Assembly: GCF_027924665.1 (NCBI RefSeq)
Contig: NZ_AP027043.1
Span: 4,092,001 to 4,156,000 of the forward strand
Direction: 5' to 3'
DNA from: Flavobacterium sp. GSB-24
Lineage (GTDB): Bacteria; Bacteroidota; Bacteroidia; Flavobacteriales; Flavobacteriaceae
Length of the DNA: 64,000 nucleotides
Of the stretch, positions 35,049 through 52,125 are shown in pieces. Below the pieces are notes generated by a model. That model was not told the DNA's origin and made no database searches. It was given only the letters and a program-made list of their open reading frames with translations. The position numbers and the translations under genes were made by a program. The stretch's first letter is position 1, and each line of letters begins with the position of its first letter.

Positions 35049-37553
35049 TTATTTAGTTTCTGCTTTGTTCAAGAAAATCCAGGTTTCGTCTGGTTTTGCG
35101 CCTTCAATTCCGCTTTGATATTTCTTCATTAAAGCGTTCCATTCGTCTACACGCGGATTATTTTGGGTTGTTTTCGGATTTAGTTTGTCCAGATTTTCGC
35201 CCTTCGGAATACTGATTACCAAGATCAATTGCCTGTCTTTTTTGAAAACCTGTAACTGTTGGAAATCGGCGTTGCAGAAACCTTTTGCTACTTCCGGCCA
35301 TTTTTCAAATTGCGTTTTGTGGTACTCAACATATTCTTTCTGCCCTTTTTCATCGGCAGGAAGATTCGCTGTTAAAACAATATTTTCCCAATCCGATGCC
35401 GGTTTCGAATCTTTACATCTTTCGAAGTTTTGAAAATCGTAAACCAAATCATCATAGATTTTAATTTCTAAAGAAGGAAAAGCGCCTGCCAATTTTCTCT
35501 TTGTTCTTTCCGGCTGATTCATTTTTCCGTAAATCACCAAATGATTTTTCCATTGGTACAATTCCTGACCTACGATTCTAAAACCAACCAAAGTCGATTT
35601 GATTTTTTCGATGTCAAAATCATTACCTATCAATTCGATTGCATACGGTTTTGGCATTTCCTGCAGTCCCCATTTTTCATCGATTACAACTTCTTTTTCT
35701 AAATCTTTATAAGGCGCTCTAATTCCGGCTGCCTCTTTAATTTTTGTACTCACATACGGATCGTTATGTTCCCAGATATTTCCTTTCGGACCGTTATGAT
35801 TTTTTAGGATTTTTTTCTCGGCAATCCAGTTATTTTTAATTGTAAAACCTTCAGAACCTTCATCGGTATACAAATACAGCCATAAAAACGGATCGTGCGC
35901 ATACGGACTATTGTAAACTTTGTCGATATAATTTTCTTCAATTCGGCTGTTGGGTTGTGCCGAAAGCGTGTAAATTCCAGCTACATCATGCAAATGTTTG
36001 GCATAATGATGAATTTTATTCCCCAGAATTTTGTTGTTCTGCATCACGTTTGGTGTATGCGTCCATCCCCAGCCCATCGCCATTCCTGAATACGATACGT
36101 CTGAAATTTCATTGTGCTCTATGGTAATATTACGCACAAAACCTGCGCTGATTCCCAAAGTTCCCCAATCTTCATTGGTTACGTTGGTAATTAAATTATC
36201 GGCAATGACTTCATCAGAACACATTTCTCTTTCGTCTTTTATAATTAAAGGCAAATGCGCTTCAAAAGCTTCTTCAGAAAAAATACCTACATTGATGGCA
36301 CTTCCGCCAATATCTTTAAATAAATTTCCTTTTACGGTATTGTGATTTGTTCCTTTATTTAAATCCAAACCAGTCGAAGCCAAATGCTCAAAACGGCAGG
36401 ATTCAAACTGAATATTATTCGAATAATTTACTTCAACCGCCGCACGAGGTCTTCCCACCCACGCCTGATTTTCTAAATTCGCCTGATTTGGCGTTCCCGG
36501 CTGTTTCAATTTATAGGCATCTAACAAGTACAAACCCGATTGCAATGGCACATGACCTTGCTTTGAAGGACGAAGCCAGTTGCTGTACTGAAACGAAATT
36601 CCTTTAAATCTAAAATGACTTACAGGCGAATCAATTGTTCCTTTTATTTCAACCAGATTTTCTAAAACAGGCGCAGTTACAACTGCCGAATTAATATCTT
36701 CTCCAGCTCTCGGAACATAATAGATTTTGGCATTTTTCTTGTCCAAAAACCATTCTCCAGGTTCGTTCAGCATCGAGATCCCGTTATTCAAATAAAAAGC
36801 AGAATTTCCGTTATTTTTAGAGATCCACGGTGCCGGCCACGGGTGTTCGCTCTGAATACGGCTTTCAGGCTCTTCAAACGAAAGTCTGGCGCTGTCTTTC
36901 TGAACTTCAATATTTTTGATTCGGAGATTGGCAATCGACCACCATTGTACGATAAACATTTCCATTCCAGGCTCAAACTTTATCGATTTGTCTTTAAACG
37001 GAATCCAGCAGGTTTGCGACTGATGATCCCACGATAAAATTCGGTCCATTGCATTTCCAGCAGTGCTTTTGGCTCTCACTGCTTTTTTTCCATTTACCCA
37101 TAATTGTCGGTAATTGATAATTGAACCTGCTTTTTGAGGCGCATCGGCCACCCAAAATGTTCCTTTTTTACCATTTAAAATGCTGGTTTTTTTCCAGTTT
37201 TTAATTTCGATTCCCCCGCTAATAATTGGCTTTGCATTTGCATCGGCTTCAATTGTTGTTGGACTTTCTGGAGTTCCCGAATCTTCTGGTCTTACAAACA
37301 AAGGTTCGTTTAAATAATACGTTCCGTTCATTACTATAATTCGGATTCCGTCTTTTATAGATGGATCTTTTAGTCGGCGTAGTTCTCTGGCTTTTCGCAT
37401 TGCCATGTGAACCGTTGCCAGCGGATTTGATTTTGTTCCGATGTTGGAATCATTTCCCGATGGCGACACCCAAATTTCAGCAGCATTCGCCGAAAAAAAA
37501 GTGAATATCATTAAAAAAACGATCAGTAATTTGTTGAAAGGAAGTAAGCGCAT
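35049..37553 (-). CDS. Secreted right-handed beta-helix protein fused to an L-rhamnose-mutarotase-like domain
   Basis: The 834-residue protein has a signal peptide ending SANAAE (about 25). Residues 26-620 form a right-handed parallel beta-helix of the polysaccharide-lyase or esterase-like kind: EIWVSPSGNDSNIGTKSNPLATVHMAM, DGIRIIVMNGTYYLNEPLFV, FESCRFEHLASTGLDLNKGTNHNTVKGNLF and EHNEISDVSYSGMAMGWGWTH. Residues 627-740 form an alpha/beta segment. Residues 720-834 look like RhaM, with YHKTQFEKWPEVAKGF (H745, WPE), LQVFKKDRQLILVIS and PRVDEWNALMKKY. RhaM proteins interconvert L-rhamnose anomers. The fusion suggests the helix domain releases or exposes a rhamnose-bearing product. It is the first gene of an operon with an oxidoreductase and a symporter. 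Confidence 0.75.
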   Translation of the reverse strand: MRLLPFNKLLIVFLMIFTFFSANAAEIWVSPSGNDSNIGTKSNPLATVHMAMRKARELRRLKDPSIKDGIRIIVMNGTYYLNEPLFVRPEDSGTPESPTTIEADANAKPIISGGIEIKNWKKTSILNGKKGTFWVADAPQKAGSIINYRQLWVNGKKAVRAKSTAGNAMDRILSWDHQSQTCWIPFKDKSIKFEPGMEMFIVQWWSIANLRIKNIEVQKDSARLSFEEPESRIQSEHPWPAPWISKNNGNSAFYLNNGISMLNEPGEWFLDKKNAKIYYVPRAGEDINSAVVTAPVLENLVEIKGTIDSPVSHFRFKGISFQYSNWLRPSKQGHVPLQSGLYLLDAYKLKQPGTPNQANLENQAWVGRPRAAVEVNYSNNIQFESCRFEHLASTGLDLNKGTNHNTVKGNLFKDIGGSAINVGIFSEEAFEAHLPLIIKDEREMCSDEVIADNLITNVTNEDWGTLGISAGFVRNITIEHNEISDVSYSGMAMGWGWTHTPNVMQNNKILGNKIHHYAKHLHDVAGIYTLSAQPNSRIEENYIDKVYNSPYAHDPFLWLYLYTDEGSEGFTIKNNWIAEKKILKNHNGPKGNIWEHNDPYVSTKIKEAAGIRAPYKDLEKEVVIDEKWGLQEMPKPYAIELIGNDFDIEKIKSTLVGFRIVGQELYQWKNHLVIYGKMNQPERTKRKLAGAFPSLEIKIYDDLVYDFQNFERCKDSKPASDWENIVLTANLPADEKGQKEYVEYHKTQFEKWPEVAKGFCNADFQQLQVFKKDRQLILVISIPKGENLDKLNPKTTQNNPRVDEWNALMKKYQSGIEGAKPDETWIFLNKAETK

Positions 37554-40013: not shown

Positions 40014-40844
40014 TTATAACTTATAAAACCTACTCACATTCTCAAACCAAACTTTATTCTGGTCTTCAATTGAAAATCCTGAAATATAATCTTCCAAAAT
40101 TTTTACCACTTCATTATAATCTGAAGCTACATTTAAAACCGGCCAATCTGATCCGTACATCAATTTATCGATTGAAAAGTTTTCAAAAATTACATCTAAA
40201 TACGGTTTTAGATCTTCTGGTTTCCAATTTTTCCAGTCGGCTTCTGTGACCATTCCAGAAATCTTACACCACACATTATTGTATTTTGCTATTTCTTCGA
40301 TGCCGCTTTTCCAAGAATAAATAGTTTCTGATTTGATGTTTGGCTTTGCTATATGATCGATTACAAACTTTTGGTTTGGAAAATCTTTCACCAAACTTAT
40401 AGCTGCCGGCAATTGGCGTTCGAAAATCAATATATCATACGTATAATCAAATGGTTTTAAAGCTGCGATTCCTCTTCTAAACGCTTCTCCATACATAAAA
40501 TCATCAGCTTCGCCTTGAACAACATGTCTAAAACCTTTCAGTTTTTCTTCGTTCGAAAAGAATTGTAAACGCTCATCGATATTTTCATTTCGTAAATCTA
40601 TCCAGCCGACAACACCTTTTATGAAATCATTTTTTGAAGCTAAATCCAATAAAAAATGAGTTTCTTCTTCAGACTGACTTGCTTGAACTGCCACACAGCC
40701 TTCAAACTGATTTTCTTTTAATAGTGGCTGTAAATCTTCTGGAAGAAAATCTCTCTGAATATTTTGCATCGTTTCATCAATCCAGCTGTCTCGAACGGGA
40801 TCAAACTTCCAAAAATGCTGATGGGAATCTATTCGTTTACTCAT
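40014..40844 (-). CDS. Amidohydrolase, L-fuconolactonase type (COG3618)
   Basis: The 276-residue cytoplasmic protein starts with the metal-binding motif RIDSHQHFWKFDP (H8, H10). It has the family blocks GVVGWIDLRN, LKGFRHVVQGE, KFVIDHIAKPNI and LMYGSDWPVL with the late Asp. Members hydrolyse sugar lactones such as L-fuconolactone, L-rhamnono-lactone or 2-pyrone-4,6-dicarboxylate. Sitting 6 bp after an SDR that looks like an L-fucose dehydrogenase, lactone hydrolysis is the natural role. It is the last gene of the four-gene leftward operon. Confidence 0.85.
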   Translation of the reverse strand: MSKRIDSHQHFWKFDPVRDSWIDETMQNIQRDFLPEDLQPLLKENQFEGCVAVQASQSEEETHFLLDLASKNDFIKGVVGWIDLRNENIDERLQFFSNEEKLKGFRHVVQGEADDFMYGEAFRRGIAALKPFDYTYDILIFERQLPAAISLVKDFPNQKFVIDHIAKPNIKSETIYSWKSGIEEIAKYNNVWCKISGMVTEADWKNWKPEDLKPYLDVIFENFSIDKLMYGSDWPVLNVASDYNEVVKILEDYISGFSIEDQNKVWFENVSRFYKL

Positions 40845-40850
40845 ATCTTT

Positions 40851-41648
40851 TTAATTAACATCGCTGATTAAAGCGCGGTCTAAATGTACGTAACCTCCAT
40901 CCACAAAAACAAATTGTCCTGTAGTATGCGATGATTTTTCTGAAATGATAAAAAGTGCCGTATCTGCAATTTCTTCTGTTTTGGTCATTCGGCTTTCTAA
41001 CGGAATACTTTTATTGATTTTATTTAAAACTGTTTCGCCGTCTGGCAATGTTTTAATCCAATCTTCGTAAGCCGGAGTATAACTTTCCGCAATAATAATT
41101 GCATTCGAACGAATTCCAAACTGAATCAAATCTACTGCCCATTCTCTGGTAAGTCCCAAAACTCCGCCTTTCGCAGCAGCGTAACCTGAAGTTCCGCCCT
41201 GCCCTGTTAAAGCTACTTTTGAACCAATATTTAAGATATTTCCTTTTGATTCTTTCAAATATGGAAGTGCATATTTAGCCAGTAGAAAGTAACTTACTAC
41301 ATTCAATTTCAATGAATTCATAAAATCCTCGTAGCTTGAATCTAATCCTGCACCGTCATTTACACCAACATTATTAATAATAGCATCGATTCTGCCGTAT
41401 TTTGCTGCGATTACTTTTACAGCATTTTCTATTGCTACGGGATCGGTTACATCTGTCTGAACAAATAAAGAATTAACGCCTCTTTTTTGAAGTTTTTCCA
41501 CGTATTCAAAACCTCTTGCATTTCTGTCAACCAAAACCGGAATTGCACCTTCATCTGCCAGTCTGTTAACGATCGTTTCTCCAATACTGCCTTCCTTTCC
41601 AGCCGAACCAGAAACAACAACTATTTTATTTTTTAAGTTTAAATCCAT
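40851..41648 (-). CDS. SDR-family dehydrogenase, L-fucose-dehydrogenase-like
   Basis: Start chosen at MDLNLKNKIVVVSGSAG (41648). The frame is open another 52 codons, but these translate a low-complexity inverted repeat. The 265-residue product has the NAD-binding SGSAGKEGSIG, NNVG, S143, and the YAAAK catalytic pair (Y156, K160). IIIAESYTPAYEDWI near the C-terminus resembles what I recall of bacterial L-fucose dehydrogenases. Expected reaction: oxidation of L-fucose, or a like deoxy- or galacto-configured sugar, to the lactone used by the amidohydrolase 6 bp downstream. Confidence 0.82.
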   Translation of the reverse strand: MDLNLKNKIVVVSGSAGKEGSIGETIVNRLADEGAIPVLVDRNARGFEYVEKLQKRGVNSLFVQTDVTDPVAIENAVKVIAAKYGRIDAIINNVGVNDGAGLDSSYEDFMNSLKLNVVSYFLLAKYALPYLKESKGNILNIGSKVALTGQGGTSGYAAAKGGVLGLTREWAVDLIQFGIRSNAIIIAESYTPAYEDWIKTLPDGETVLNKINKSIPLESRMTKTEEIADTALFIISEKSSHTTGQFVFVDGGYVHLDRALISDVN

Positions 41649-41676
41649 TTCTTTTTGTGTTAGATGTAATTTGTAA

Positions 41677-41857
41677 AATGTCTCTTTTGTAAAAAGTGAT
41701 TTGTGAAATGTAAAATGATTTTTCTTTTTGTGAAATATAAGAGGTGAAATGTGAAATGTAAAATCCGATCGCTTTATGTCTATATAACGAAAATCACATT
41801 TCACATTTCACATTTCACAAATCACTTTTTACATTTCACTTTTCACTTTTCACAAAT
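41677..41857. repeat. Low-complexity inverted repeat of TGAAATGTAAAA words
   Basis: Left half (41677-41765): AAAATG, TGATTTGTGAAATGTAAAA, GAGGTGAAATGTGAAATG. Right half (41790-41857): CACATTTCACATTTCAC, AAATCACTTTTTACATTTC. Together they can fold into a long imperfect hairpin that fills the spacer between the Zn-dehydrogenase and SDR genes. Confidence 0.75.
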
Positions 41858-42870
41858 TAATCAATTTCAATTAACGCCTTAATCACATTATTCTTCGGAT
41901 CAATCAAGCTTCCAAAATCATTAATCATTTCAGAAAAACTTGTTCTATGCGTAATGTATTTCTTCGGATCGATTTTGCCTTCTTTCAAACATTTCATTAC
42001 ATATTCAAAATCTTCGATTGTGGCATTTCTGCTGCTCATTAAAGTTGATTCTCTTTTATGGAAATCAGGATGACTGAAACTCAATTCTCCCTTTTGTAGT
42101 CCAACCAAAACAAATCTTCCGCCATGCGAAATATAGTTGAAAGCGCTGTTCATTACTTTCTGATTTCCAGTTGCATCGATCACCACATTTGCCATGTCGC
42201 CATTGGTCAATTCAGCTAATTTTTGCGCAACATCATCGTTTAACGGATTAATCGTTTCATCTGCATTTAATTCCGTTTTACAGAAATTTAATCTGTAATC
42301 GTTGATATCCATCACAATTACTTTTGCTCCAGCGATTTTAGCAAACTGAATCAAACCAATTCCGATAGGTCCTGCGCCCATAACTAAGACAGTGTCCGTT
42401 GACTTAACAGCCGCTCTTCTTACTCCGTGTGCTGCAATTGCCAAAGGTTCAACCAAAGCCAATTCATCATAATCTAAACCTTGACCGTGCAGTAAATATT
42501 GTTCAGGAATCGAAACATATTCGGCCATTCCTCCATCAATATGTACTCCAAAAACTTTAATATTTACGCAGCAGTTTGTCAATCCGTTTCGACACGCCAC
42601 ACATTTTCCGCAGTTGAAATATGGAATAAAAGTAACTTTATCTCCGGGTTTAAAACCTGCTGCATTTCCTTTTACATATTCCGCTGCCAATTCGTGTCCC
42701 AAAATTCTTGGATATTCAAAATAGGGCTGAGTTCCTCCAAAAGCATGAATATCAGTTCCGCAGATACCAATTCTTTTTATTTTCAATAAAACTTCGCCTT
42801 CTTTTGGTTCTGGAATACTGGTTTCTTTTAAAAGAAATTCCTGCGGCTTTTCGCAAACAATATATTTCAT
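41857..42870 (-). CDS. Zinc-dependent medium-chain alcohol/polyol dehydrogenase
   Basis: The 337-residue cytoplasmic enzyme has the catalytic zinc site GICGTDIHAFGG and GHELAAEYV, structural zinc cysteines (NCGKCVACRNGLTNCC), and a Rossmann segment VLVMGAGPIGIGLIQFAKIAGAKVIVMD. It resembles L-threonine, sorbitol or galactonate dehydrogenases. Within a deoxy-sugar-acid pathway the expected step is oxidation of a 2-keto-3-deoxy sugar acid at C4, giving the diketo acid for the FAH-family hydrolase upstream. This role is inference: in known L-fucose pathways an SDR often does this step. Confidence 0.85.
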   Translation of the reverse strand: MKYIVCEKPQEFLLKETSIPEPKEGEVLLKIKRIGICGTDIHAFGGTQPYFEYPRILGHELAAEYVKGNAAGFKPGDKVTFIPYFNCGKCVACRNGLTNCCVNIKVFGVHIDGGMAEYVSIPEQYLLHGQGLDYDELALVEPLAIAAHGVRRAAVKSTDTVLVMGAGPIGIGLIQFAKIAGAKVIVMDINDYRLNFCKTELNADETINPLNDDVAQKLAELTNGDMANVVIDATGNQKVMNSAFNYISHGGRFVLVGLQKGELSFSHPDFHKRESTLMSSRNATIEDFEYVMKCLKEGKIDPKKYITHRTSFSEMINDFGSLIDPKNNVIKALIEID

Positions 42871-43053: not shown

Positions 43054-43908
43054 TTACTTTTTATAAGCTACAGCTTTTTGTTTACTTGTCCCTAAACCTT
43101 CAATTCCCAATTCTACAACATCTCCTGCTTTAAGGTAAATCGGATCTGGTTTGATTCCTAAACCAACTCCCGGAGGCGTTCCTGTACTGATAATATCGCC
43201 AGGAAGCAAAGTCATAAACTGACTTAAATAATGCACCAAATAAGGAATTTTGAAAACTAAATTTAAGGTATTGCTGTCTTGGTATTTTTTGCCATTTACT
43301 GTCAGCCACATCTTTAAATTGTCAACATCTGCGATTTCGTCTTTGGTCGCCAAAAATGGTCCAAGAGGCGCAAAAGTGTCACTTCCTTTCCCTTTTGCCC
43401 ATTGCCCGCCGCGTTCCAATTGAAAAGCTCTTTCGCTGTAATCGTTCAACAAAGCATAACCTGCAACGTAATCCAAAGCTTCCGCTTCTTCTACATAACT
43501 TGCTTTTTTGCCTACAACAAATGCCAATTCTACTTCCCAATCTGTTTTTTCGCTGTTTTTTGGAATAATCAAATCATCATCTGGTCCGCATAAAGAAGTA
43601 GTCGATTTGAAGAAAATAATAGGTTCAGTCGGAATCGGCGCATTTGTTTCTTTGCAGTGATCGATATAATTCAAACCAATACAAATAATTTTAGAAGGTC
43701 GTGCAACTGGAGAACCCAAACGTACCGAAGCATCTACTTCTGGCAAAGTCGGATTGCTTTCTAATGCTTTTTGCAGTTTTTCTAATCCATTTTCTTCAAA
43801 GAAACTTTCGTTAAAATCGGTTACAATCGAAGAAACATCATATCTCTTTTCTCCAATTAAAACTCCTGGTTTCTCTTTTCCGATTTCTCCAAAACGTATT
43901 AATTTCAT
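43054..43908 (-). CDS. Fumarylacetoacetate-hydrolase-family protein, probable diketo-deoxy-sugar-acid hydrolase
   Basis: The 284-residue protein has the FAH domain (about 70-284): IICIGLNYIDHCKETNAPIP, PIIFFKSTTSLCGPDDDLIIP, the metal ligands in DWEVELAFVVG (two Glu) and NDYSER (Asp), and GDIISTGTPPGVG. Members of this subgroup include 2,4-diketo-3-deoxy-L-fuconate/L-rhamnonate hydrolase, which yields pyruvate and lactate. It is the first gene of the leftward operon, directly under the shared divergent control region, and with the Zn-dehydrogenase, SDR and lactonase would make up four of the five steps of a non-phosphorylating pathway. Confidence 0.85.
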   Translation of the reverse strand: MKLIRFGEIGKEKPGVLIGEKRYDVSSIVTDFNESFFEENGLEKLQKALESNPTLPEVDASVRLGSPVARPSKIICIGLNYIDHCKETNAPIPTEPIIFFKSTTSLCGPDDDLIIPKNSEKTDWEVELAFVVGKKASYVEEAEALDYVAGYALLNDYSERAFQLERGGQWAKGKGSDTFAPLGPFLATKDEIADVDNLKMWLTVNGKKYQDSNTLNLVFKIPYLVHYLSQFMTLLPGDIISTGTPPGVGLGIKPDPIYLKAGDVVELGIEGLGTSKQKAVAYKK

Positions 43909-44309
43909 AATCGTATATTTTTAATTGTTAGTTTATTTTTTTCTGATGAATGAACTTCATCAAACACTTCTGTTTTATGGCTAAGTCTTCTATTTACCAA
44001 TTCAATTTTGATAAAAAAGACCTAGCAAAAATAATAAATGTAAATTTTACAATTACAAAAGTAATTTTTAAAAATTAATATTCGAGATATATTTTATTTT
44101 CCATTACTTAAAATGACTAAAGTTTAAATTTTTATAACATTTTTTAGATGGTTTGTAAAAATTATATCACTAAATATCGATTTACGTAAAAAAAGATCTG
44201 CAATAAACATAGGATTTCTTGTTCATTTAAATCTTATTTCTACTTTTGTAATTGTATTTTTTACATTTATTATTTCAAACGATTTCACTACCCAAAATTC
44301 CTATATAAA
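43909..44309. promoter_or_regulatory. Divergent control region with two inverted 35-bp promoter-operator modules
   Basis: No gene. The plus-strand module at 44241-44275 and the minus-strand module at 44063-44029 match at 32 of 35 positions. Each begins with the -7 box TACTTTTG, continues TAATTGTA and, after three differing bases, TTTACATTTATTATTT. The rightward promoter has a full TTG (44219-44221)-N19-TACTTTTG. The leftward one has TCG in the -33 place. The shared sequence lies over and just after the expected transcript start, where a repressor would act. Inside each is a TGTAA-N9-TTACA dyad. Confidence 0.65.
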
Positions 44310-45458
44310 ATGATAAAATTAAAAGGCATAACTTGGAACCATACAAGAGGTCTGCTTCCTATGGTAGCCACATCGCAGCGTTTTACTGAACTACATCCAG
44401 AAGTTGAAATTTCATGGGAAAAGAGAAGTTTACAAGAATTCGCAGATGCTTCTATTGAAGATTTAGCCAAAAGATTTGATTTATTGGTAATCGATCATCC
44501 TTGGACTGGTTTTGGAGCGCAGACCAAAGCAATTCTTCCGTTATCTGATTATTTATCAGACGAATATATTAAAGATCAAGAAATTAACACTGTCGGAAAA
44601 TCTTACGGAAGTTATGTTTTTCATGATAAATTATGGGCGCTTCCTATAGATGCTGCAACTCCGGTTGCCTCTGCCCGCTTGGATCTTTTAGAAAAAAACA
44701 ACTTAGAAGTACCTAAAACGTACGACGATTTGTTGGCATTGGCTAAAAAAGGCTTAGTGGCTTTTGCTGGAATTCCGGTAGATGTTTTAATGAGTTTTTA
44801 TATGTTTTGCTGCAGTTTAGGCGAAGCTCCTTTTCTTTCTGAAGAAAAAGTAATTTCTAAAACAACAGGAATCAAAGCGCTTCAAATGTTTAGGGAATTG
44901 GCACAATTGATTGATCCAGCTAACTTTAACAGAAACCCAATTCAGGTTTATGAAGCGATGGTTAATTCAGATGAAATTGCTTACTGCCCGTTTGCTTATG
45001 GTTATTCTAATTATTCGCGAATTGGCTACAGCCGTAAACTTTTACATTTTTACGATTTAGTAAAATTGAATGATAATCCAATGATTTCGTCATTGGGCGG
45101 AACAGGATTAGCGGTTTCATCTTTCAGCCAGCATATTGATGAAGCGGTTAAATATGCTGAATTTACAGGTTCATCTCAAATACAGCAAAATATTTATACG
45201 GATAATGGTGGTCAGCCAGGCCATTTGCAGGCTTGGAAAAGTGAGCGAATTAATGGTGTAACGCATGATTATTTCAAAAACACTTTACCCGCTTTAGAAC
45301 GCGCATTCCTTCGTCCGAGATATTATGGACATATGTATTTCCAAGATCATGTAGGCGATGTGGTTCGCAATTATTTGATGAAAGGCGGAGACGAACTAAA
45401 AGTATTGGAAGAAATGAATTCGCTTTACGCAGAATCTCTAAAAATTCAGACAATATGA
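44310..45458 (+). CDS. Solute-binding-protein-fold protein without signal peptide (SBP1)
   Basis: The 382-residue protein resembles family 1 extracellular sugar-binding proteins of ABC importers (LKGITWNHTRGLLPMVATSQRF, DLLVIDHPWTGFG, LWALPIDAATPVASARLDLLE, KTYDDLLALAKKG, SSLGGTGLAVSSFSQHIDEAVKYAEF). Yet it starts directly at MIKLKGITWNH with no signal peptide or lipobox, and no upstream in-frame start could add one. No permease or ATPase gene is near. Its stop overlaps the next start by 4 bp, coupling it to two CoA-transferases and a second such protein. It may have become a cytoplasmic enzyme subunit, ligand sensor or substrate carrier. The function is unknown. Confidence 0.75.
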   Translation: MIKLKGITWNHTRGLLPMVATSQRFTELHPEVEISWEKRSLQEFADASIEDLAKRFDLLVIDHPWTGFGAQTKAILPLSDYLSDEYIKDQEINTVGKSYGSYVFHDKLWALPIDAATPVASARLDLLEKNNLEVPKTYDDLLALAKKGLVAFAGIPVDVLMSFYMFCCSLGEAPFLSEEKVISKTTGIKALQMFRELAQLIDPANFNRNPIQVYEAMVNSDEIAYCPFAYGYSNYSRIGYSRKLLHFYDLVKLNDNPMISSLGGTGLAVSSFSQHIDEAVKYAEFTGSSQIQQNIYTDNGGQPGHLQAWKSERINGVTHDYFKNTLPALERAFLRPRYYGHMYFQDHVGDVVRNYLMKGGDELKVLEEMNSLYAESLKIQTI

Positions 45459-46606
45459 AGCCTTTAGAAGGATTAATTGTTTTAGAATTCTGTCAGTTTT
45501 TGGCAGGACCTTCTGCTGGTTTAAAACTAGCCGATTTGGGCGCACGTGTCATCAAAATCGAACGTCCTGTAAAAGGTGAAGCCTGCAGACAATTGAGCAT
45601 CAAAGATTTATTTGTTGATGACAGCAGTTTGCTTTTTCATACCATAAACCGAAATAAAGAATCTTTTGCAGCCGATTTAAAAAATCCTGACGATTTAGTT
45701 TTAATTAAAAAACTGATTCAAAAGGCTGATATTATGACACATAATTTCAGACCTGGCGTGATGGAAAAAATCGGTTTAGATTTTGAAAATACGCTTTCTA
45801 TAAATCCACAAATTATTTACGGAACCATTACAGGTTACGGAAATGAAGGTCCGTGGGCAAAGAAACCTGGACAGGATTTATTATTGCAATCGCTTTCTGG
45901 ATTAAGCTGGCTGAGCGGACGCAAAAGCCAAGGTCCAGTTCCTTTTGGTTTGGCTGTGGCCGATTTAATGTGCGGGAATCATTTTGTACAGGGAATTTTG
46001 GCCGCACTTTTAAAAAGAGCTAAAACTAAAAAAGGTGTTTTGGTTGAAGTCAGTTTATTAGAATCGATTCTCGATGTACAATTTGAAGCCATTACTTCTT
46101 TCTTAAATGATGGAGGTCAATTGCCTGAAAGAGGTGATATTAAAGGAAGCGCACATGCTTTTTTAAGTGCCCCTTATGGTGTTTACCAAACGCAAGACGG
46201 TTATTTATCACTTGCAATGGGCGATTTACTTTTCATTGGAAAAGCATTAGGTTTAGATTTAACTGAATTTACAGATAAACATCTTTGGTTTGAAAAACGA
46301 GATGAAATCAGAACGATTTTAAGCGAAAGAATTCAAACCCAAACTTCTGATTATTGGATTGAAATCCTTCAACAAGAAGGAATCTGGTGCGGTAAAGTTT
46401 TCAATTACGAAGAACTGGATAATCAGCCTTTTGTAAATGAATTACAGCTGAAACAAACCGTAAAAAATGCCGAAGGCGAAACTTTGGTTACAACCAGAAG
46501 TCCGATTCAATTGGATGGAGAAATTCTGCTAAGCGAAAAAGCAGCACCAAAAGTAGGTCAGGATAATTTAAGCATACACGAACAATTTTTAAACGATTTG
46601 AAATGA
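45455..46606 (+). CDS. Class III CoA-transferase (CaiB/BaiF family), first of a tandem pair
   Basis: The 383-residue cytoplasmic protein has CaiB-type landmarks: LEFCQFLAGPSAGLKLADLGARVIKIE, HNFRPGVMEKIGLDF, IIYGTITGYGNEGPW, PGQDLLLQSLSGLSWLSG, and the catalytic Asp in GLAVADLMCGN (D170). These enzymes move CoA between organic acids. Start and stop overlap both neighbours by 4 bp. It is closely similar to the next gene, a tandem pair like the heterodimeric CoA-transferases of this family. The acid substrate is unknown; a sugar-derived hydroxy acid is likely given the MaoC-type hydratase and the leftward operon. Confidence 0.9.
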   Translation: MKPLEGLIVLEFCQFLAGPSAGLKLADLGARVIKIERPVKGEACRQLSIKDLFVDDSSLLFHTINRNKESFAADLKNPDDLVLIKKLIQKADIMTHNFRPGVMEKIGLDFENTLSINPQIIYGTITGYGNEGPWAKKPGQDLLLQSLSGLSWLSGRKSQGPVPFGLAVADLMCGNHFVQGILAALLKRAKTKKGVLVEVSLLESILDVQFEAITSFLNDGGQLPERGDIKGSAHAFLSAPYGVYQTQDGYLSLAMGDLLFIGKALGLDLTEFTDKHLWFEKRDEIRTILSERIQTQTSDYWIEILQQEGIWCGKVFNYEELDNQPFVNELQLKQTVKNAEGETLVTTRSPIQLDGEILLSEKAAPKVGQDNLSIHEQFLNDLK

Positions 46607-47742
46607 AGCCATTAGAAGATTATTTAATTGTAGATTTCAGTCAGTTTCTTTCGGGTCCGTCGGCGAGTTTACGTCTGGCAGACTTGGGAGCGCGTGTGAT
46701 AAAAATAGAAAAGCCGGGAACGGGAGACATCTGCCGTACTTTATATACTTCTGATTTGATTATGAATGGCGAATCGTCTGTTTTTCATACCATCAACAGA
46801 AACAAAGAATCATTTGCAATTGATTTTAAACAGCCTGAGGAACTTCAAAAATTAAAAAAATTATTAGCTAAAGCTGATGTTGTGATGCATAATTTCAGAC
46901 CTGGAGTTATGGAACGCATTGGTTTAAGTTATGATGAAGTTAAAAGTATTAATCCAAATGTGATTTATGCTTCGATTTCAGGTTTTGGAGAACATCCAGA
47001 TTTAAAAAATTTACCAGGTCAGGATTTGCTTTTGCAATCTTTAACGGCTTTGACTTGGTTGAGCGGTAATCAGGAAGACGGCCCGGTACCAATGGGACTA
47101 TCGATCGTTGATATGCTCGCTGGAGCGCATTTGGCGCAGGGAATTTTGGCTGCCTTATACAGAAAAGCAACGCATAATATTGGGGCGCAGGTTCAGGTAA
47201 GCATGCTCGAATCGGCATTTGATTTTCAATTTGAGACGATTACAACTTATTTTAATGACGGAGGCGAATTGCCTGTTCGAACCAAAACCAATAATGCACA
47301 TGCGTATTTGGGCGCGCCATACGGAATTTACAAAACCAAAAACGGTTATTTAGCACTAGCAATGGGATCAATTCCTGTTTTGGCTTCTCTGCTAAAATGT
47401 GATGATTTATTACAGTTTCCTGAAAATAAATTCACATTAAGAGACGAAATTAAAAATATTCTTGCGGATCATTTGCAAACGCAGGAAACACAGTTTTGGC
47501 TGGACATTTTAGAACCCGCAGATATTTGGTGTGCAGGAGTTTTAAATTATCAGCAGCTATTTGCTGAAGATGGATTTAAGGTGTTGAATTTTACCCAACA
47601 AGTCGAAATGCTTGACGGCTACACTTATAAAACAACACGCTGTCCAATAAAAATAGACGGCGAATATCTGACTTCTGGAAAAGGTTCGCCAAAACTGGGT
47701 CAAGACAACGAGAAAATTATTAAAGAATTTATAGACTGCTGA
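46603..47742 (+). CDS. Class III CoA-transferase (CaiB/BaiF family), second of a tandem pair
   Basis: The 379-residue paralogue of the preceding gene keeps the same frame of motifs (VDFSQFLSGPSASLRLADLGARVIKIEKP, HNFRPGVMERIGLSY, PGQDLLLQSLTALTWLSG) and the catalytic Asp at the same residue number (D170, GLSIVDMLAG). Both copies therefore look active. The two sequences differ throughout, so the duplication is not recent. It overlaps its upstream neighbour by 4 bp, and its stop codon shares one base with the next start codon (TGATG). Confidence 0.9.
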   Translation: MKPLEDYLIVDFSQFLSGPSASLRLADLGARVIKIEKPGTGDICRTLYTSDLIMNGESSVFHTINRNKESFAIDFKQPEELQKLKKLLAKADVVMHNFRPGVMERIGLSYDEVKSINPNVIYASISGFGEHPDLKNLPGQDLLLQSLTALTWLSGNQEDGPVPMGLSIVDMLAGAHLAQGILAALYRKATHNIGAQVQVSMLESAFDFQFETITTYFNDGGELPVRTKTNNAHAYLGAPYGIYKTKNGYLALAMGSIPVLASLLKCDDLLQFPENKFTLRDEIKNILADHLQTQETQFWLDILEPADIWCAGVLNYQQLFAEDGFKVLNFTQQVEMLDGYTYKTTRCPIKIDGEYLTSGKGSPKLGQDNEKIIKEFIDC

Positions 47743-48998
47743 TGGAAAAAATTAGAATCGCCGTTCGAAAATTCGATCCGTTCGAAAGTACACTTCAAAA
47801 ATTATGGGATGCTTTCTGCCTTCAAAACAATATAAAAATGGAAGCAGAAATGATTGCCTTAGAACTTCATGACTTGTATGAAACCACAATTTCAGAAAAA
47901 GGTTTAAAAGAAGGAAAATGGGATATTGCTCACATTAACACCGATTGGATTTTTGATGCTGTAAACGAAAATGCGGTTCTTAATTTGTTTTCCTTAATTG
48001 GAGAAAATCCACCAGAAAATTATCCTTTTGGATGGCATAAATCGCTTTTGCATTTACAAAAACTAAGTAATGGCATTTTCGGACTTCCCTTTCACGATGG
48101 ACCAGAATGTCTGATCTACCGAAAAGATTTATTCGAAAACAAAACAGAAAAAGAGAATTTTAGAAAACAGTTTGGTTACGAACTTTCTACACCAAAAACG
48201 TGGCAGGAATTCGCAGAAATTGCAACATTCTTTAATCGTCCCGAACAAAATTTATACGGTTCTGTTTTTGCCAATTATCCAGACGGGCACAACATGGTTT
48301 TTGACTTTTGTCTGCAATTATGGACAAGAGGCGGTTCTTTATTAAACAAAAAAAATCAGATTGACATTCATAATGAAGCAGCCATAAAAGCATTGGATTT
48401 CTATCGAAAAATGGTCACCGATAAAAATGCTGTTCATCCAAAATCGAGAGAATTTGGTTCGGTTGAAGCAGGTCTGGCTTTCGCCGAAGGACAAGCTGCA
48501 ATGGCAATCAACTGGTTTGGATTTGCTTCTATGGCAGAAGTAATTGAAGATTCGAAAGTAAAAGGAAAAATCGATATCACTTCCCTTCCATCCGATCCGG
48601 GTTATAAAACAGCTTCTTTGAATGTATATTGGCTGTATACCATTGGATCTGGAAGCAAACACAAAAAACTGGCATACGATTTTTTGCGTTTTGCCACAAC
48701 GCCAGAAAGCGACAAATTATTAACGACTGAAGGCGGTATTGGATGTAGGAAATCAACTTGGAAAGATGAAGAAATTAATACTTTAATTCCGTTTTATCAT
48801 AAACTGGAAATGCTTCATGAAAATGCGCTAACATTACCTCAAACACCAATCTGGCCAAAAGTAGCAGAACTGATTGACAGCACTGTTTTGAAAGCCATTG
48901 AAACCGATATTTCGTCTGAAATATTGTTAGAGGAAACTCAGAAAAAAATTAGAGAATTAAGTCAAGGAACAACATTACACAGCTCTGTCAAAAATTAA
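47742..48998 (+). CDS. Solute-binding-protein-fold protein without signal peptide (SBP2)
   Basis: This 418-residue protein has the family 1 sugar-binding layout: IRIAVRKFDPFESTLQKLWDAF, KWDIAHINTDWIFDAV, GIFGLPFHDGPECLIYRKDLFE, LSTPKTWQEFAEIATFFN, GQAAMAINWFGFASMAEV, and a late YDFLRFATTPESDKLLTTEGGIGCRKS. As with SBP1, the N-terminus (MEKIRIAVRK) is charged and non-hydrophobic, so export by Sec is not expected. It is distinct from SBP1 in sequence. Its start overlaps the stop of the second CoA-transferase by one base, so it belongs to the coupled four-gene unit. Function unknown. Confidence 0.75.
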   Translation: MEKIRIAVRKFDPFESTLQKLWDAFCLQNNIKMEAEMIALELHDLYETTISEKGLKEGKWDIAHINTDWIFDAVNENAVLNLFSLIGENPPENYPFGWHKSLLHLQKLSNGIFGLPFHDGPECLIYRKDLFENKTEKENFRKQFGYELSTPKTWQEFAEIATFFNRPEQNLYGSVFANYPDGHNMVFDFCLQLWTRGGSLLNKKNQIDIHNEAAIKALDFYRKMVTDKNAVHPKSREFGSVEAGLAFAEGQAAMAINWFGFASMAEVIEDSKVKGKIDITSLPSDPGYKTASLNVYWLYTIGSGSKHKKLAYDFLRFATTPESDKLLTTEGGIGCRKSTWKDEEINTLIPFYHKLEMLHENALTLPQTPIWPKVAELIDSTVLKAIETDISSEILLEETQKKIRELSQGTTLHSSVKN

Positions 48999-49031: not shown

Positions 49032-50105
49032 ATGAATATTCCCTATAAACCATTACTTCCCGAAACAGAACAGCCAATTATCATTATCGGGGCGAGTGGT
49101 ATCGTAAAAGATGCACACCTTCCAGCTTACGAAATGGCTGGTTTTAAAGTTTTTGGTATTACGAACAGAACAATTTCTAAAGCATACGATTTACAGAAAC
49201 AATTCAAAATCGATCATGTTTTTGAAAATGTGGCAGATGCGGTTAAAAATGCGCCCTCAAATGCTGTTTACGATATTACCGTTTTACCTGACCAATACAT
49301 TGAAATTTTAGAACAGCTTCCTGATGGAGCCGCTGTTTTGATTCAGAAACCAATGGGAAATGATCTGGCTCAGGCACGGGAAATTGTGGCGGTTTGCGAA
49401 AGAAAAAATCTGGTTGCTGCAATCAACTTTCAGCTTCGATTTGCTTCGTTTGTCAGCGCTGCCCGTTATTTAATTAATGAAGGAATTATTGGCCAATTAT
49501 ACGATTTAGAGTTTAAAGTTACGGTAAATACACCTTGGGAATTATTTCCTTTAATTAAAGAACATCCGAGATTGGAAATTCTTTTTCACAGCGTGCATTA
49601 CATTGATTGTATTCGATCTTTCTTGGGAAATCCGAAAGGAGTTATGGCCAAAACGGCTAAACATCCGCTTAAAAAATTATCTTCAAGCAGATCGACAATT
49701 ATTTTAGATTATGCCGAAGATATGCATGTGGTTATTAATACGAATCATGATCATCACTTTGGTCCAAAACATGAGGAAAGTTACATCAAATGGGAAGGAA
49801 CAAAAGGTGCTATTCGAGCAAAAATGGGCTTATTAATGAATTATCCTGACGGTCTTCCAGACGTTTTTGAGTACGCTTTAGCTAAAAAAGATAATGAAAA
49901 AGAATACGAATGGACCGAAGTTAAACTGGAAGGATCTTGGTTTCCGGAAGCATTTATTGGCGCAATGTCTAATCTGATACGCTACAAGGAAGGTTCTGAT
50001 ACAATATTATCTGCCAGTGTTCAAGATGTTTTAGGCACAATGAAAGTTGTAGAAGCTTGTTATATCAGCAGTAAAAATGGCGGTATTTCTTTTGATGAAG
50101 TGTAA
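49032..50105 (+). CDS. Gfo/Idh/MocA-family oxidoreductase
   Basis: The 357-residue cytoplasmic protein opens its Rossmann fold with PIIIIGASGIVKDAHLPAYEMAG. AVLIQKPMGNDLAQAREIV carries the family Lys (QKP in place of EKP), and HSVHYIDCIRSFLGNPKG the C-terminal His. It starts 33 bp after SBP2 and looks co-transcribed. It shares only general family features with the oxidoreductase at 33771. A redox step on a sugar or sugar acid is expected; no closer assignment is possible. Confidence 0.87.
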   Translation: MNIPYKPLLPETEQPIIIIGASGIVKDAHLPAYEMAGFKVFGITNRTISKAYDLQKQFKIDHVFENVADAVKNAPSNAVYDITVLPDQYIEILEQLPDGAAVLIQKPMGNDLAQAREIVAVCERKNLVAAINFQLRFASFVSAARYLINEGIIGQLYDLEFKVTVNTPWELFPLIKEHPRLEILFHSVHYIDCIRSFLGNPKGVMAKTAKHPLKKLSSSRSTIILDYAEDMHVVINTNHDHHFGPKHEESYIKWEGTKGAIRAKMGLLMNYPDGLPDVFEYALAKKDNEKEYEWTEVKLEGSWFPEAFIGAMSNLIRYKEGSDTILSASVQDVLGTMKVVEACYISSKNGGISFDEV

Positions 50106-50214: not shown

Positions 50215-50658
50215 ATGTATTTTAAATCCACTTTTTTCGAAGATTATCAAATCGACGACAAACGAGTAACTTTAGGCAGAACCATCACAGAAACTGACTT
50301 TGTGGTTCATGCCGGACATACGGGAGATTTCTTCCCGCACCATATGGATGAAGAATGGTGTAAAACACAACCCTTCGGACAAAGAATTGCACACGGAACT
50401 ATGGTTTTCAGCATTGGAATCGGCTTAACGGCATCTGAAATTAATCCAGAAGCTTTTTCTAGGGGCTATGACAAAATGCGTTTTGTAAAACCTGTTCATA
50501 TTGGCGATACTATTCACTCAGAAATTACGATTTCTGAAAAAGGCGAAGCTAAAAATCCTGAAATGGGAACCGTAACCGAACATGTAGAAATTATCAACCA
50601 GCGAGGTGAAGTCGTTTTGGTATGTGATCATCTATTGCTTGTGAAGAAAAGATCCTAA
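50215..50658 (+). CDS. MaoC-type hydratase/dehydratase
   Basis: The 147-residue single hot-dog-fold protein has the hydratase-2 signature [14 protein letters not shown], keeping the catalytic Asp/His pair (D38, H43) though the usual Asn between them is Phe40. [18 protein letters not shown] follows in the expected place. MaoC proteins add or remove water on CoA thioesters. With two CoA-transferases in the same operon, a CoA-activated sugar acid could be dehydrated here. This is the main hint that the operon runs through thioester intermediates. Confidence 0.85.
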
Positions 50659-50820: not shown

Positions 50821-52125
50821 ATGCAAATTACAAACCAAGCTGGCGATCTACATGAAGTGCCGACGGAAGGCGGAAATCAAAAACAATATCTTCTTCCTTT
50901 TATTTTAGTTACATGCCTATTTTTTCTTTGGGGAATGGCCCACAATTTAGATTCTGTTTTGATTCCGCACCTAAAAAAGGCTTGTGAACTAAACAACCGC
51001 CAATCTACTTTAATTGATACTTCAGTTTTCTTTGCTTACTTTATTATGGCGATTCCTGCCGGAATGCTGATTAAAAGATTTGGTTATAAAAACAGTATTA
51101 TAACAGGATTGCTGGTTTTTGCTGTTGGAGCATTTCTATTTGTACCTGCAGCCAATACGAGAACTTACGAATTGTTTCTATTCGCCTTATTTGTAATCGG
51201 ATGTGGTTTGACGATTTTAGAAACAAGTGCAAATCCGTATGCTGCGATATTAGGACCAGCTGAATCTTCTTCTAAACGATTGAATTTAGCGGCTTCTTTC
51301 AACGGATTAGCAGCAATGGTTGCTCCAATTGTAGGTTCATTATTTATTCTTTCTGGAACAAATCATACGCCAGAACAAATGGCTGCGATGCCAGAAGCCG
51401 AAAAAGCGGCCTATTTATTAGGAGAAGCTGCTTCTGTAAAAATGCCATATATCGTATTAGGAAGTATTTTGGTTTTGGTTGCCATTATTTTCTACTTCGT
51501 GCAATTGCCGTCAATGAAAGCAACGCATACCGAAGCTGAAATTAAACCGGGATTTTTCTCTGTTTTAAAATTTAGACATTTAAGCTGGGGAGTTGCTGCT
51601 CAATTTTTCTATGTGGGTGCACAAGTTTGTATCACAAGTTTCTTTATCAGAATTGCACAGCAAGGTGCTGGTTTAGACGAAAAAACGGCAGGATATTATC
51701 TGGGAATCTACGGCTTCCTTTTTATGGCAGGACGTTTTATTGGGACATTCTTTTTGCGTTATGTAAAAGATTATGTTTTACTTTCAATCTACTGCGTAAT
51801 GAGTGTTTTATTATGTCTAGTTGCTATTTATGGCTCTGGAATTGTAGTTATTTATGCTCTTGGAGGAATTGGATTTTTCATGTCAATTATGTTCCCAACT
51901 ATTTTCTCATTAGGAATTAAAGGTTTAAAATCGAATACTGAAACGGGATCTTCTTGGTTAGTAATGTCAATTGTCGGCGGAGCGATTATTCCTTACGGAA
52001 TGGGGACTTTAATCGACATGAATCATGATGATATTCAGTCCGGATATATTATTCCGTTAGTTTGCTTTTTGATTATTCTTTCTTTTGGGGTTTTTGGTCA
52101 TAAAGTAAAAACGGTTTCTGAATAA
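50821..52125 (+). CDS. fucP: L-fucose:H+ symporter-type permease (FHS family MFS)
   Basis: The 434-residue inner-membrane protein has about 12 helices. Its motifs match FucP: LPFILVTCLFFLWGMAHNLDSVLIPHLKKAC with D44, YFIMAIPAGMLIKRFGYK, and CGLTILETSANPYAAILGP with E134. These acidic residues correspond to the proton and sugar residues D46 and E135 of the E. coli protein. FHS relatives also carry glucose, galactose or acetylglucosamine, so L-fucose is likely but not certain. The SDR and lactonase on the other side of the control region support a 6-deoxy-sugar. A terminator follows 20 bp after the stop. Confidence 0.88.
   Translation: MQITNQAGDLHEVPTEGGNQKQYLLPFILVTCLFFLWGMAHNLDSVLIPHLKKACELNNRQSTLIDTSVFFAYFIMAIPAGMLIKRFGYKNSIITGLLVFAVGAFLFVPAANTRTYELFLFALFVIGCGLTILETSANPYAAILGPAESSSKRLNLAASFNGLAAMVAPIVGSLFILSGTNHTPEQMAAMPEAEKAAYLLGEAASVKMPYIVLGSILVLVAIIFYFVQLPSMKATHTEAEIKPGFFSVLKFRHLSWGVAAQFFYVGAQVCITSFFIRIAQQGAGLDEKTAGYYLGIYGFLFMAGRFIGTFFLRYVKDYVLLSIYCVMSVLLCLVAIYGSGIVVIYALGGIGFFMSIMFPTIFSLGIKGLKSNTETGSSWLVMSIVGGAIIPYGMGTLIDMNHDDIQSGYIIPLVCFLIILSFGVFGHKVKTVSE

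Follow-up and report, generated by a model that had tools for sequence, protein, structure and literature searches.

Gene content of the locus

The window analysed here is a stretch of 64,000 nucleotides from Flavobacterium sp. GSB-24 (contig NZ_AP027043.1, positions 4,092,001 to 4,156,000), and its subject is a quartet of coupled genes on the forward strand. L, G and P numbers denote loci, genomes and proteins throughout, G000 being the window's own genome. The two outer genes encode SBP1 (44310..45458, 382 residues) and SBP2 (47742..48998, 418 residues), which have the fold of the substrate-binding proteins (SBPs) of ABC importers and belong, like these, to Pfam SBP_bac_1/SBP_bac_8; no signal peptide was seen in either. 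The two inner genes encode the family III coenzyme A (CoA) transferases Cai1 (45455..46606, 383 residues) and Cai2 (46603..47742, 379 residues), both of the CoA_transf_3 family. The open reading frames (ORFs) overlap by 4 bp (SBP1/Cai1), 4 bp (Cai1/Cai2) and 1 bp (Cai2/SBP2), so that coordinates and Pfam confirm the coupled SBP/CoA-transferase/CoA-transferase/SBP arrangement described in a first-pass annotation of the sequence. On the same strand, 3' of the quartet, follow a Gfo/Idh/MocA oxidoreductase (49032..50105, by Pfam), a MaoC hydratase/dehydratase (50215..50658, PF01575, 77.8 bits) and a FucP-type sugar/H+ symporter (50821..52125, TIGR00885, 364.6 bits at a cutoff of 280.4).

Four genes are transcribed divergently on the reverse strand, across a 401-bp intergenic region (43909..44309) that presumably holds the promoters. 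They encode an FAH-family hydrolase resembling 2,4-didehydro-3-deoxy-L-rhamnonate hydrolase (43054..43908, 378 bits, cutoff 500), a Zn-dependent sugar/alcohol dehydrogenase assigned by family profile matches (41857..42870), a short-chain dehydrogenase/reductase (SDR) that is a candidate C4 dehydrogenase (40851..41648) and an amidohydrolase resembling L-fucono-1,5-lactonase (40014..40844, 265 bits, cutoff 400). The SDR frame stays open to a GTG at 41804, and this longer form (40851-41804) carries a 52-residue extension of non-coding appearance; the ATG at 41648 is probably the true start. Homologues of the lactonase, SDR and FAH hydrolase of the non-phosphorylative L-rhamnose/L-fucose route are thus present, with scores below the NCBIfam equivalog cutoffs, and the gene content supports the sugar-acid context suggested earlier.

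Conservation of the unit and its hydratase partner

The genome scan considered the best 80 of 127 loci, all from Bacteroidota and picked by similarity to SBP1. A search of 296 Bacteroidota genomes gave SBP1 in 16, one of them G000, and the weakest match had an E-value of 4e-118 at a limit of 1e-20, which argues for a discrete family. The order SBP1-Cai1-Cai2-SBP2, whose conservation had been proposed as a check, was complete at 79 of the 80 loci (L085, the one incomplete case, is a short contig), and a CoA-transferase accompanied SBP1 at all 80. The Gfo/Idh/MocA gene was a neighbour at 79/80 loci, MaoC and FucP at 78/80 each, and quartet, Gfo, MaoC and FucP stood together at 78/80. Amidohydrolase and SDR were present at 57/80 and FAH at 50/80. 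Counting longest-ORF starts, with window copies counted more than once, the 4-bp overlap of SBP1 and Cai1 recurred in 72 of 90 neighbour pairs, that of Cai1 and Cai2 in 12 of 84, and the 1-bp overlap of Cai2 and SBP2 in 39 of 83. The tight coupling emphasised in the first-pass annotation is therefore exact in the window and mostly kept between SBP1 and Cai1, while the other two overlaps vary.

Similar neighbourhoods had also been anticipated in other phyla, and they were found in Alpha- and Betaproteobacteria, where a signal-less SBP1 adjoins a CoA-transferase in either gene order on plasmid clusters, and in Streptomyces, where the adjacency was judged by BLAST labels. The proteobacterial and Streptomyces copies come from plasmids, and sampling outside Bacteroidota is uneven. 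Among 19 non-Bacteroidota loci (annotation or BLAST labels; L099 and L101 counted once, L193 counted with L112) a CoA-transferase was seen in 18 and a hydratase in 16. Within this set no hydratase was seen for Sinorhizobium meliloti pSymB (L099/L101), Microvirga (L106) and Streptomyces (L197), and no CoA-transferase for L106. In two of the 18 (L117, L196) transferase and SBP1 share a cluster and are not adjacent. Within 18-19 kb stretches of ten loci outside the close Flavobacterium type, SBP2 was present in L172, L173 and L179, L175-L178, L180 and L181 had SBP1-Cai1-Cai2 without it, and L182 had SBP1 with none of the other three; judged by gene content, SBP2 is dispensable. GH29 fucosidases adjoin some of the other copies of the unit, and IclR genes lie near several copies of SBP1.

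A near-constant partner missing from the unit as first delimited is an enoyl-CoA hydratase, either a MaoC protein or an unrelated crotonase. MaoC occurs in most clusters, crotonase in those of G107 and G182 among Bacteroidota and in those of Sinorhizobium, Variovorax, Pseudosulfitobacter, Pararhizobium, Rhizobium, Jannaschia and Azospirillum elsewhere. Two unrelated folds filling one slot argue for the reaction itself, acyl-CoA hydration or dehydration, as the conserved element. The window's MaoC has its best PDB match in 4ffu (211.7 bits), which we take to be an S. meliloti protein, and its D38 and H43 presumably form the Asp/His dyad of the hotdog fold, at what we take to be the spacing of R-hydratases. 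In G206 quartet and MaoC are both gone, from two separate places, and tblastn found no remnants of them; Gfo, FucP, FAH, Zn-dehydrogenase, SDR and amidohydrolase are kept at 85-98% identity. A cluster of Rhizobium sp. Q54 (L117, 9526-16125) combines one CoA-transferase and one SBP1 with both crotonase and MaoC, together with TRAP transporter genes; a possible role of this gene set is acyl-CoA epimerisation.

Absence of export signals from the binding proteins

Export was screened by peak hydropathy over the first 35 residues together with a reading of the N-termini, using ten exported SBPs as controls. The controls peaked at 1.6-3.1. Forty SBP1 copies from Bacteroidota and Proteobacteria had a mean peak of 0.56 and a maximum of 1.48, the latter for L177 with its alternative upstream start. 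In 38 of the 40 the TW motif of the first strand is reached within 1-13 residues of the start; the remaining two (L095, L177) have longer ORF starts. For SBP2 (89 ORFs by best BLAST hit) the mean was 0.52; the only signal-bearing members, from L106 and L108, are exported SBPs of 23-24% identity swept in by the search, and the SBP2 of L195, whose longest ORF is over-extended, was signal-less by hand reading. In several Proteobacteria the start of SBP1 overlaps the preceding CoA-transferase gene by 4 bp, which leaves no room for a leader. Neither signal peptide nor lipobox was thus detected on SBP1 or SBP2 by hydropathy or N-termini, and the first-pass description of the outer proteins as non-exported was borne out.

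Both proteins are well conserved, with 30 of 382 SBP1 positions invariant across 39 diverse copies from Bacteroidota to Proteobacteria and SBP2 strongly conserved over 18 copies. SBP2 shares 26% identity with the exported SBP from the Pararhizobium cluster. A model of SBP1 alone was of modest quality (mean pLDDT 72.8, pTM 0.73). In the predicted structures the fold resembles that of the CUT1 importer SBPs MalE3, SmoF and LpqY (TMt 0.80 for MalE3 and up to 0.82 for SmoF, both with the SBP part of a fused model); unlike these, the SBPs of the unit lack an export signal, had no importer found at the Bacteroidota loci and are joined to CoA-transferases by fusion or gene coupling.

Three rhizobial queries, UgpC and two permeases, matched nothing in the window (E<=1e-3) and nothing at any of the 80 Bacteroidota loci (E<=1e-8), and a one-gene symporter, FucP or RhaT, stands at the loci instead of an ABC importer. 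The earlier statement that permease and ATPase are missing holds for the window and these loci; it does not extend to the alphaproteobacterial clusters, which do carry such genes, mostly next to a separate SBP. This separate SBP was classified as exported by the hydropathy screen in L104, L107, L112 and L113. L195 has a signal-less SBP2 whose gene shares 4 bp with that of a permease.

CoA-transferases and natural fusions

Cai1 and Cai2 exceeded the cutoff of PF02515 with 302 and 298 bits and are the only matches to this family in the genome. Residue 170 is Asp in both, is invariant in 41 aligned CoA-transferases and aligns with the Asp of GVAMTD in formyl-CoA transferase and in SUGCT, so that sequence and alignment confirm the retention of D170 claimed for both. 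In the midpoint-rooted CoA-transferase tree the Bacteroidota Cai1 (100/99) and Cai2 (94/83) form sister clades (91/84) that stand separate from the proteobacterial copies, and the crotonase-associated transferases form a far clade. With moderate support, the pair therefore seems to stem from a duplication in or near Bacteroidota.

A fusion search favouring long proteins gave 123 matches, of which the best 120 were considered. Among these 120 were 26 tandem CoA-transferases of this subfamily, the first half being closer to Cai1 and the second to Cai2 in 19 of the 26; the tandem proteins suggest that Cai1 and Cai2 may act as a heterodimer. P0267 fuses SBP1 to Cai without a Met at the junction, and P0266 is similar with one Met there. 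Further joined proteins are the MaoC-Cai fusion P0276 and the lactonase-SBP1 fusion P0292. As neighbouring genes overlap, single-base errors can imitate fusions, and weight was therefore placed solely on the tandem Cai proteins and on P0266 and P0267. In the AlphaFold model of P0267 the SBP part was predicted confidently (about 90), with a whole-chain pTM of 0.54. This fused chain yielded no confident arrangement, and the physical SBP-Cai complex and the fixed subunit ratio put forward in the first-pass annotation stay a suggestion.

Dehydratases and isomerases in genomes with the unit

The window locus holds no aldonate dehydratase of a known type. A second FAH locus of the same genome (L169, C1:1080000-1098000) contains RhaM, an FAH hydrolase 82-83% identical, an SDR, a GD_AH/UxaA-like protein of 550 residues, an AraC-like regulator, a further SDR and an SSF-type transporter, and probably encodes, by its gene content, a classical fuconate/rhamnonate route. 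This UxaA-like gene weakens simple gap-filling by the unit in the window's own genome, and the gap argument was therefore moved to 25 genomes with a fuller unit locus.

Flavobacterium loci differ upstream of the unit. The window form consists of FAH, Zn-dehydrogenase, SDR and amidohydrolase; a two-SDR form has a second SDR between FAH and SBP1 (31 loci, or 30 by a stricter ORF test that drops L053); and at 7 loci the neighbours are present and FAH is absent. A 395-413 residue ORF between SDR and SBP1 in L206 and L207, considered as a hidden dehydratase, proved to be GH88. The gap test took in 25 two-SDR genomes, whose unit locus also carries lactonase, FAH, Zn-dehydrogenase and two SDRs, and 12 genomes each of the window form and the no-FAH form; the MR_MLE and IlvD searches covered the 25. 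G309, G311 and G324 share contig positions with G021, G202 and G222, which means that two genome samples overlap. Fuconate-type UxaA, defined as 81-100% identical to the UxaA of L169 and named from the place of that gene beside FAH, was found in 2 of the 25 two-SDR genomes (G300, G306), leaving 23 without it, and in one of the 12 no-FAH genomes (G333). MR_MLE searches gave just three matches in 19 of the 25, scoring in the same pattern as the three in G000 (by sequence a dipeptide epimerase and menC, the third weak and taken as enolase). Strong extra MR_MLE genes occurred in five (G296, G301, G302, G308, G309), and G311 had a weak extra one together with a second IlvD-type gene; 24 of the 25, like G000, have a single IlvD-type gene. 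In 17 of the 25 (16 without L053) no enolase-, IlvD- or fuconate-type UxaA dehydratase for the step was found, UxuA and other families not having been searched for. Another UxaA, at 51-57% identity, occurs in 48 of the 49 genomes. It adjoins a Mannitol_dh-family gene in G000, G309 and G206 (NCBIfam name in G309: tagaturonate reductase), and UxaC was found in G000 and G309; these neighbours identify it as altronate dehydratase in the three genomes, of which just G309 is among the 25.

Across 39 genomes (G000, G206, G296-G332) L-rhamnose isomerase RhaA was absent from 38, the sole match being in G301, and the FucI N1 domain of L-fucose isomerase from all 39, so the phosphorylative isomerase routes are missing. 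L-fucose as the sole substrate was rejected: pectin and rhamnogalacturonan enzymes (GH28, pectic acid lyase, GH88, GH106, rhamnosidase, GH141-rhaM) are neighbours in the window and in L183, L206 and L207, which makes L-rhamnose at least as likely. The rest of the window consists of pectin enzymes, namely GH106, another rhamnosidase, GH28, GH127, a pectinesterase and a GH141-type protein. The last (35049-37553, reverse strand) is a beta-helix protein with a leader-like N-terminus, to whose C-terminus an L-rhamnose mutarotase (rhaM) domain is fused; it may be a secreted glycosidase that in addition equilibrates the anomers of the sugar it frees.

Discussion

The module is real and widespread. 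We infer, at a probability of roughly 40%, that it is a cytosolic module for breaking down 6-deoxyhexoses (L-rhamnose/L-fucose) oxidatively by way of CoA thioesters. FucP would import the sugar, which would be oxidised to the lactone and opened to the aldonate by the amidohydrolase. The Cai1/Cai2 pair would place CoA on the carboxylate of L-rhamnonate or L-fuconate, MaoC would eliminate the 3-hydroxyl group by acyl-CoA beta-elimination, and the enol product would ketonise to 2-keto-3-deoxyacyl-CoA. By handing CoA to the next aldonate the transferase would close the cycle, and oxidation at C4 by the SDR followed by FAH cleavage would give pyruvate and L-lactate. Thioesters have a much more acidic alpha proton than carboxylates; enolase-type dehydratases use Mg to achieve this activation. 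SBP1, and SBP2 where present, would stay in the cell with the sugar-binding fold kept, as dedicated acid-binding partners of the transferases, SBP1 binding the sugar acid, which as a hydrophilic polyol is not the kind of substrate that family III transferases usually act on. Whether a cluster uses MaoC or crotonase may depend on the configuration at C3.

We favour this reading because of the quartet at 79 of 80 loci, the adjacency across phyla, the hydratase in the cluster, the joint absence from G206, the fusions, the gap in 17 of 25 genomes and the lack of isomerases. The tie between signal-less SBP and CoA-transferase is well supported by the comparative evidence, and the reaction assigned to it is a good but unproven deduction. 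More tentative is the wider idea that SBPs from ABC import have become substrate-presenting CoA-transferase subunits, in a CoA-thioester sugar-acid dehydratase that replaces enolase-, IlvD- and UxaA-type enzymes in many bacteria; we would expect it to hold in about one case out of three. The first-pass suggestion that binding proteins serve a sugar acid to CoA-transferases stood as to the functional link, given adjacency in both orders across phyla and fusions; the unit proved larger, including the hydratase, and SBP2 dispensable.

A number of observations weigh against the proposed dehydration module. Fuconate-type UxaA lies elsewhere in all 12 window-form genomes and in G000, so that dehydration in these genomes need not rest on the unit alone, and in several proteobacterial clusters the unit is accompanied by L-fuconate dehydratase, a different MR_MLE enzyme or UxaA parts. 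At 18 of the 80 loci, all non-Flavobacterium ones included, the stretch has the unit and lacks FAH, Zn-dehydrogenase and lactonase; FAH was absent at E<=1e-40 from G154 and G107 with the unit present; and G206, having lost the unit and kept the rest, has no dehydratase of the searched kinds. The Martelella cluster L116 (16741-26403) comprises FAH, crotonase, CoA-transferase, SDR and aldose epimerase without SBP1, and adjoins another cluster with SBP1. AMACR-like racemases of the Cai family have Asp at the place of D170 too, so this residue does not exclude them. Among the joined proteins, P0258 and P0268 link SBP1 and Cai through out-of-frame-looking stretches and P0297 and P0304 look frameshifted, and the single-chain prediction of P0267 gave no confident SBP-Cai interface. 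The unit may accordingly belong to the same pathways and perform acyl-CoA chemistry at another step, such as C3 epimerisation by dehydration and rehydration, or on another acid, beside a classical dehydratase. The dehydratases just named, the two hydratases with one transferase and one SBP1 in L117, and the unit without FAH in G154 and G107 would fit this possibility. It is made less likely than the main reading by the 17 of 25 genomes with none of the three searched kinds and by L108, L114 and L192, where CoA-transferase, SBP1 and crotonase are paired with FAH and no classical dehydratase is annotated in 19-31 kb.

Other explanations separate the SBPs from the transferases. They could act in the cytosol as sensors, or as free enzymes encoded by the same operon, the coupling just setting expression; chorismate dehydratase MqnA, a periplasmic-binding-protein fold, is known to catalyse. 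In G286 (L182, 9385-10545) SBP1 lies beside IclR and GH29 without a CoA-transferase in its stretch, the neighbours including aldolase/SDR-fusion and TIM-barrel isomerase domain genes and an adjoining 468-residue ORF without Pfam match. In Microvirga (L106, 10988-13173) an SBP1-like gene overlaps a UxuA-like gene of the mannonate dehydratase family by 4 bp, again without CoA-transferase in the stretch, which would represent an SBP coupled to a different sugar-acid dehydratase. Both cases count against the proposed module and point toward such sensors or enzymes, as do P0292 and the IclR genes near several copies; we nevertheless regard this explanation as unlikely in view of the CoA-transferase found with SBP1 at 80/80 Bacteroidota and 18/19 other loci in both orders, and of P0266 and P0267. 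If the four proteins were merely co-transcribed and acted separately, the transferases using an unrelated acid, the lack of an interface in the fused-chain model and the varying Cai1-Cai2 and Cai2-SBP2 overlaps would be expected, but persistence across phyla, adjacency kept in inverted order, joint absence from G206 and the fusions render this improbable. Least probable is that the SBPs are ordinary importer parts whose route to the periplasm escaped notice, or the decayed remains of an ABC importer. The fold close to CUT1 sugar SBPs, the 26% identity of SBP2 to an exported SBP, the alphaproteobacterial ABC genes and the overlap with a permease gene in L195 point that way; against them stand the signal-less N-termini of 40 SBP1 copies and the SBP2 orthologues, the 30 invariant SBP1 positions and the symporter at loci where no ABC query matched.

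Of the known systems, the CaiB/CaiD carnitine system, in which a CoA-transferase and a crotonase work in a CoA cycle, likewise places a family III transferase with catalytic Asp beside an enoyl-CoA hydratase and dehydrates a CoA-activated hydroxy acid. The unit differs in its sugar-acid context, two transferases, SBP-fold partners and, in the window, a hotdog MaoC, and CaiB is a distant match (55 bits to Cai2, 43 to Cai1). The heteromeric family III transferases BbsEF (PDB 9fn0, as we take it) and SmtAB also have two adjacent non-identical CaiB-type genes, which the unit additionally shows as natural tandem fusions. Both subunits of the unit keep the Asp, unlike in BbsEF and SmtAB, for which we know of no SBP partner, and the better BbsEF subunit gave just 91 and 112 bits against the transferases of the unit. 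The non-phosphorylative L-fucose/L-rhamnose diketo-hydrolase route shares FAH hydrolase, lactonase, SDR and FucP homologues with the unit locus; the window locus has CoA enzymes and no enolase-, IlvD- or UxaA-type aldonate dehydratase. Dehydratases of the UxaA/GarD superfamily, with a relative at L169 of G000, do the step proposed for the unit, yet belong to an unrelated, CoA-free family; D-arabinonate is a substrate of UxaA-family enzymes, and L-fuconate has been attributed to one pair on the strength of gene context and unpublished data (PMC6336799). In work on S. meliloti SBP biosensors, the proteins that bind L-fucose and L-rhamnose are of the CUT2 type (PMC3454389). Open-licence PMC full-text searches, judged by title or abstract start, gave no description of the unit, and the parts seen of PMC3454389, PMC11378808, PMC9007349, PMC10444878 and PMC6336799 do not describe it; apparently it is undescribed.

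In some bacteria living on plant sugars, these sugar-binding proteins appear to stay inside the cell and are tied to CoA enzymes, probably within an undescribed route of sugar-acid dehydration. If true, aldonic acids would be dehydrated as CoA thioesters, a chemistry that is new as far as we know, and a very large bacterial binding-protein family would have a role outside transport. Many signal-less proteins named 'ABC transporter substrate-binding protein' would need correction, and a concrete pathway gap in pectin-degrading flavobacteria would become testable.

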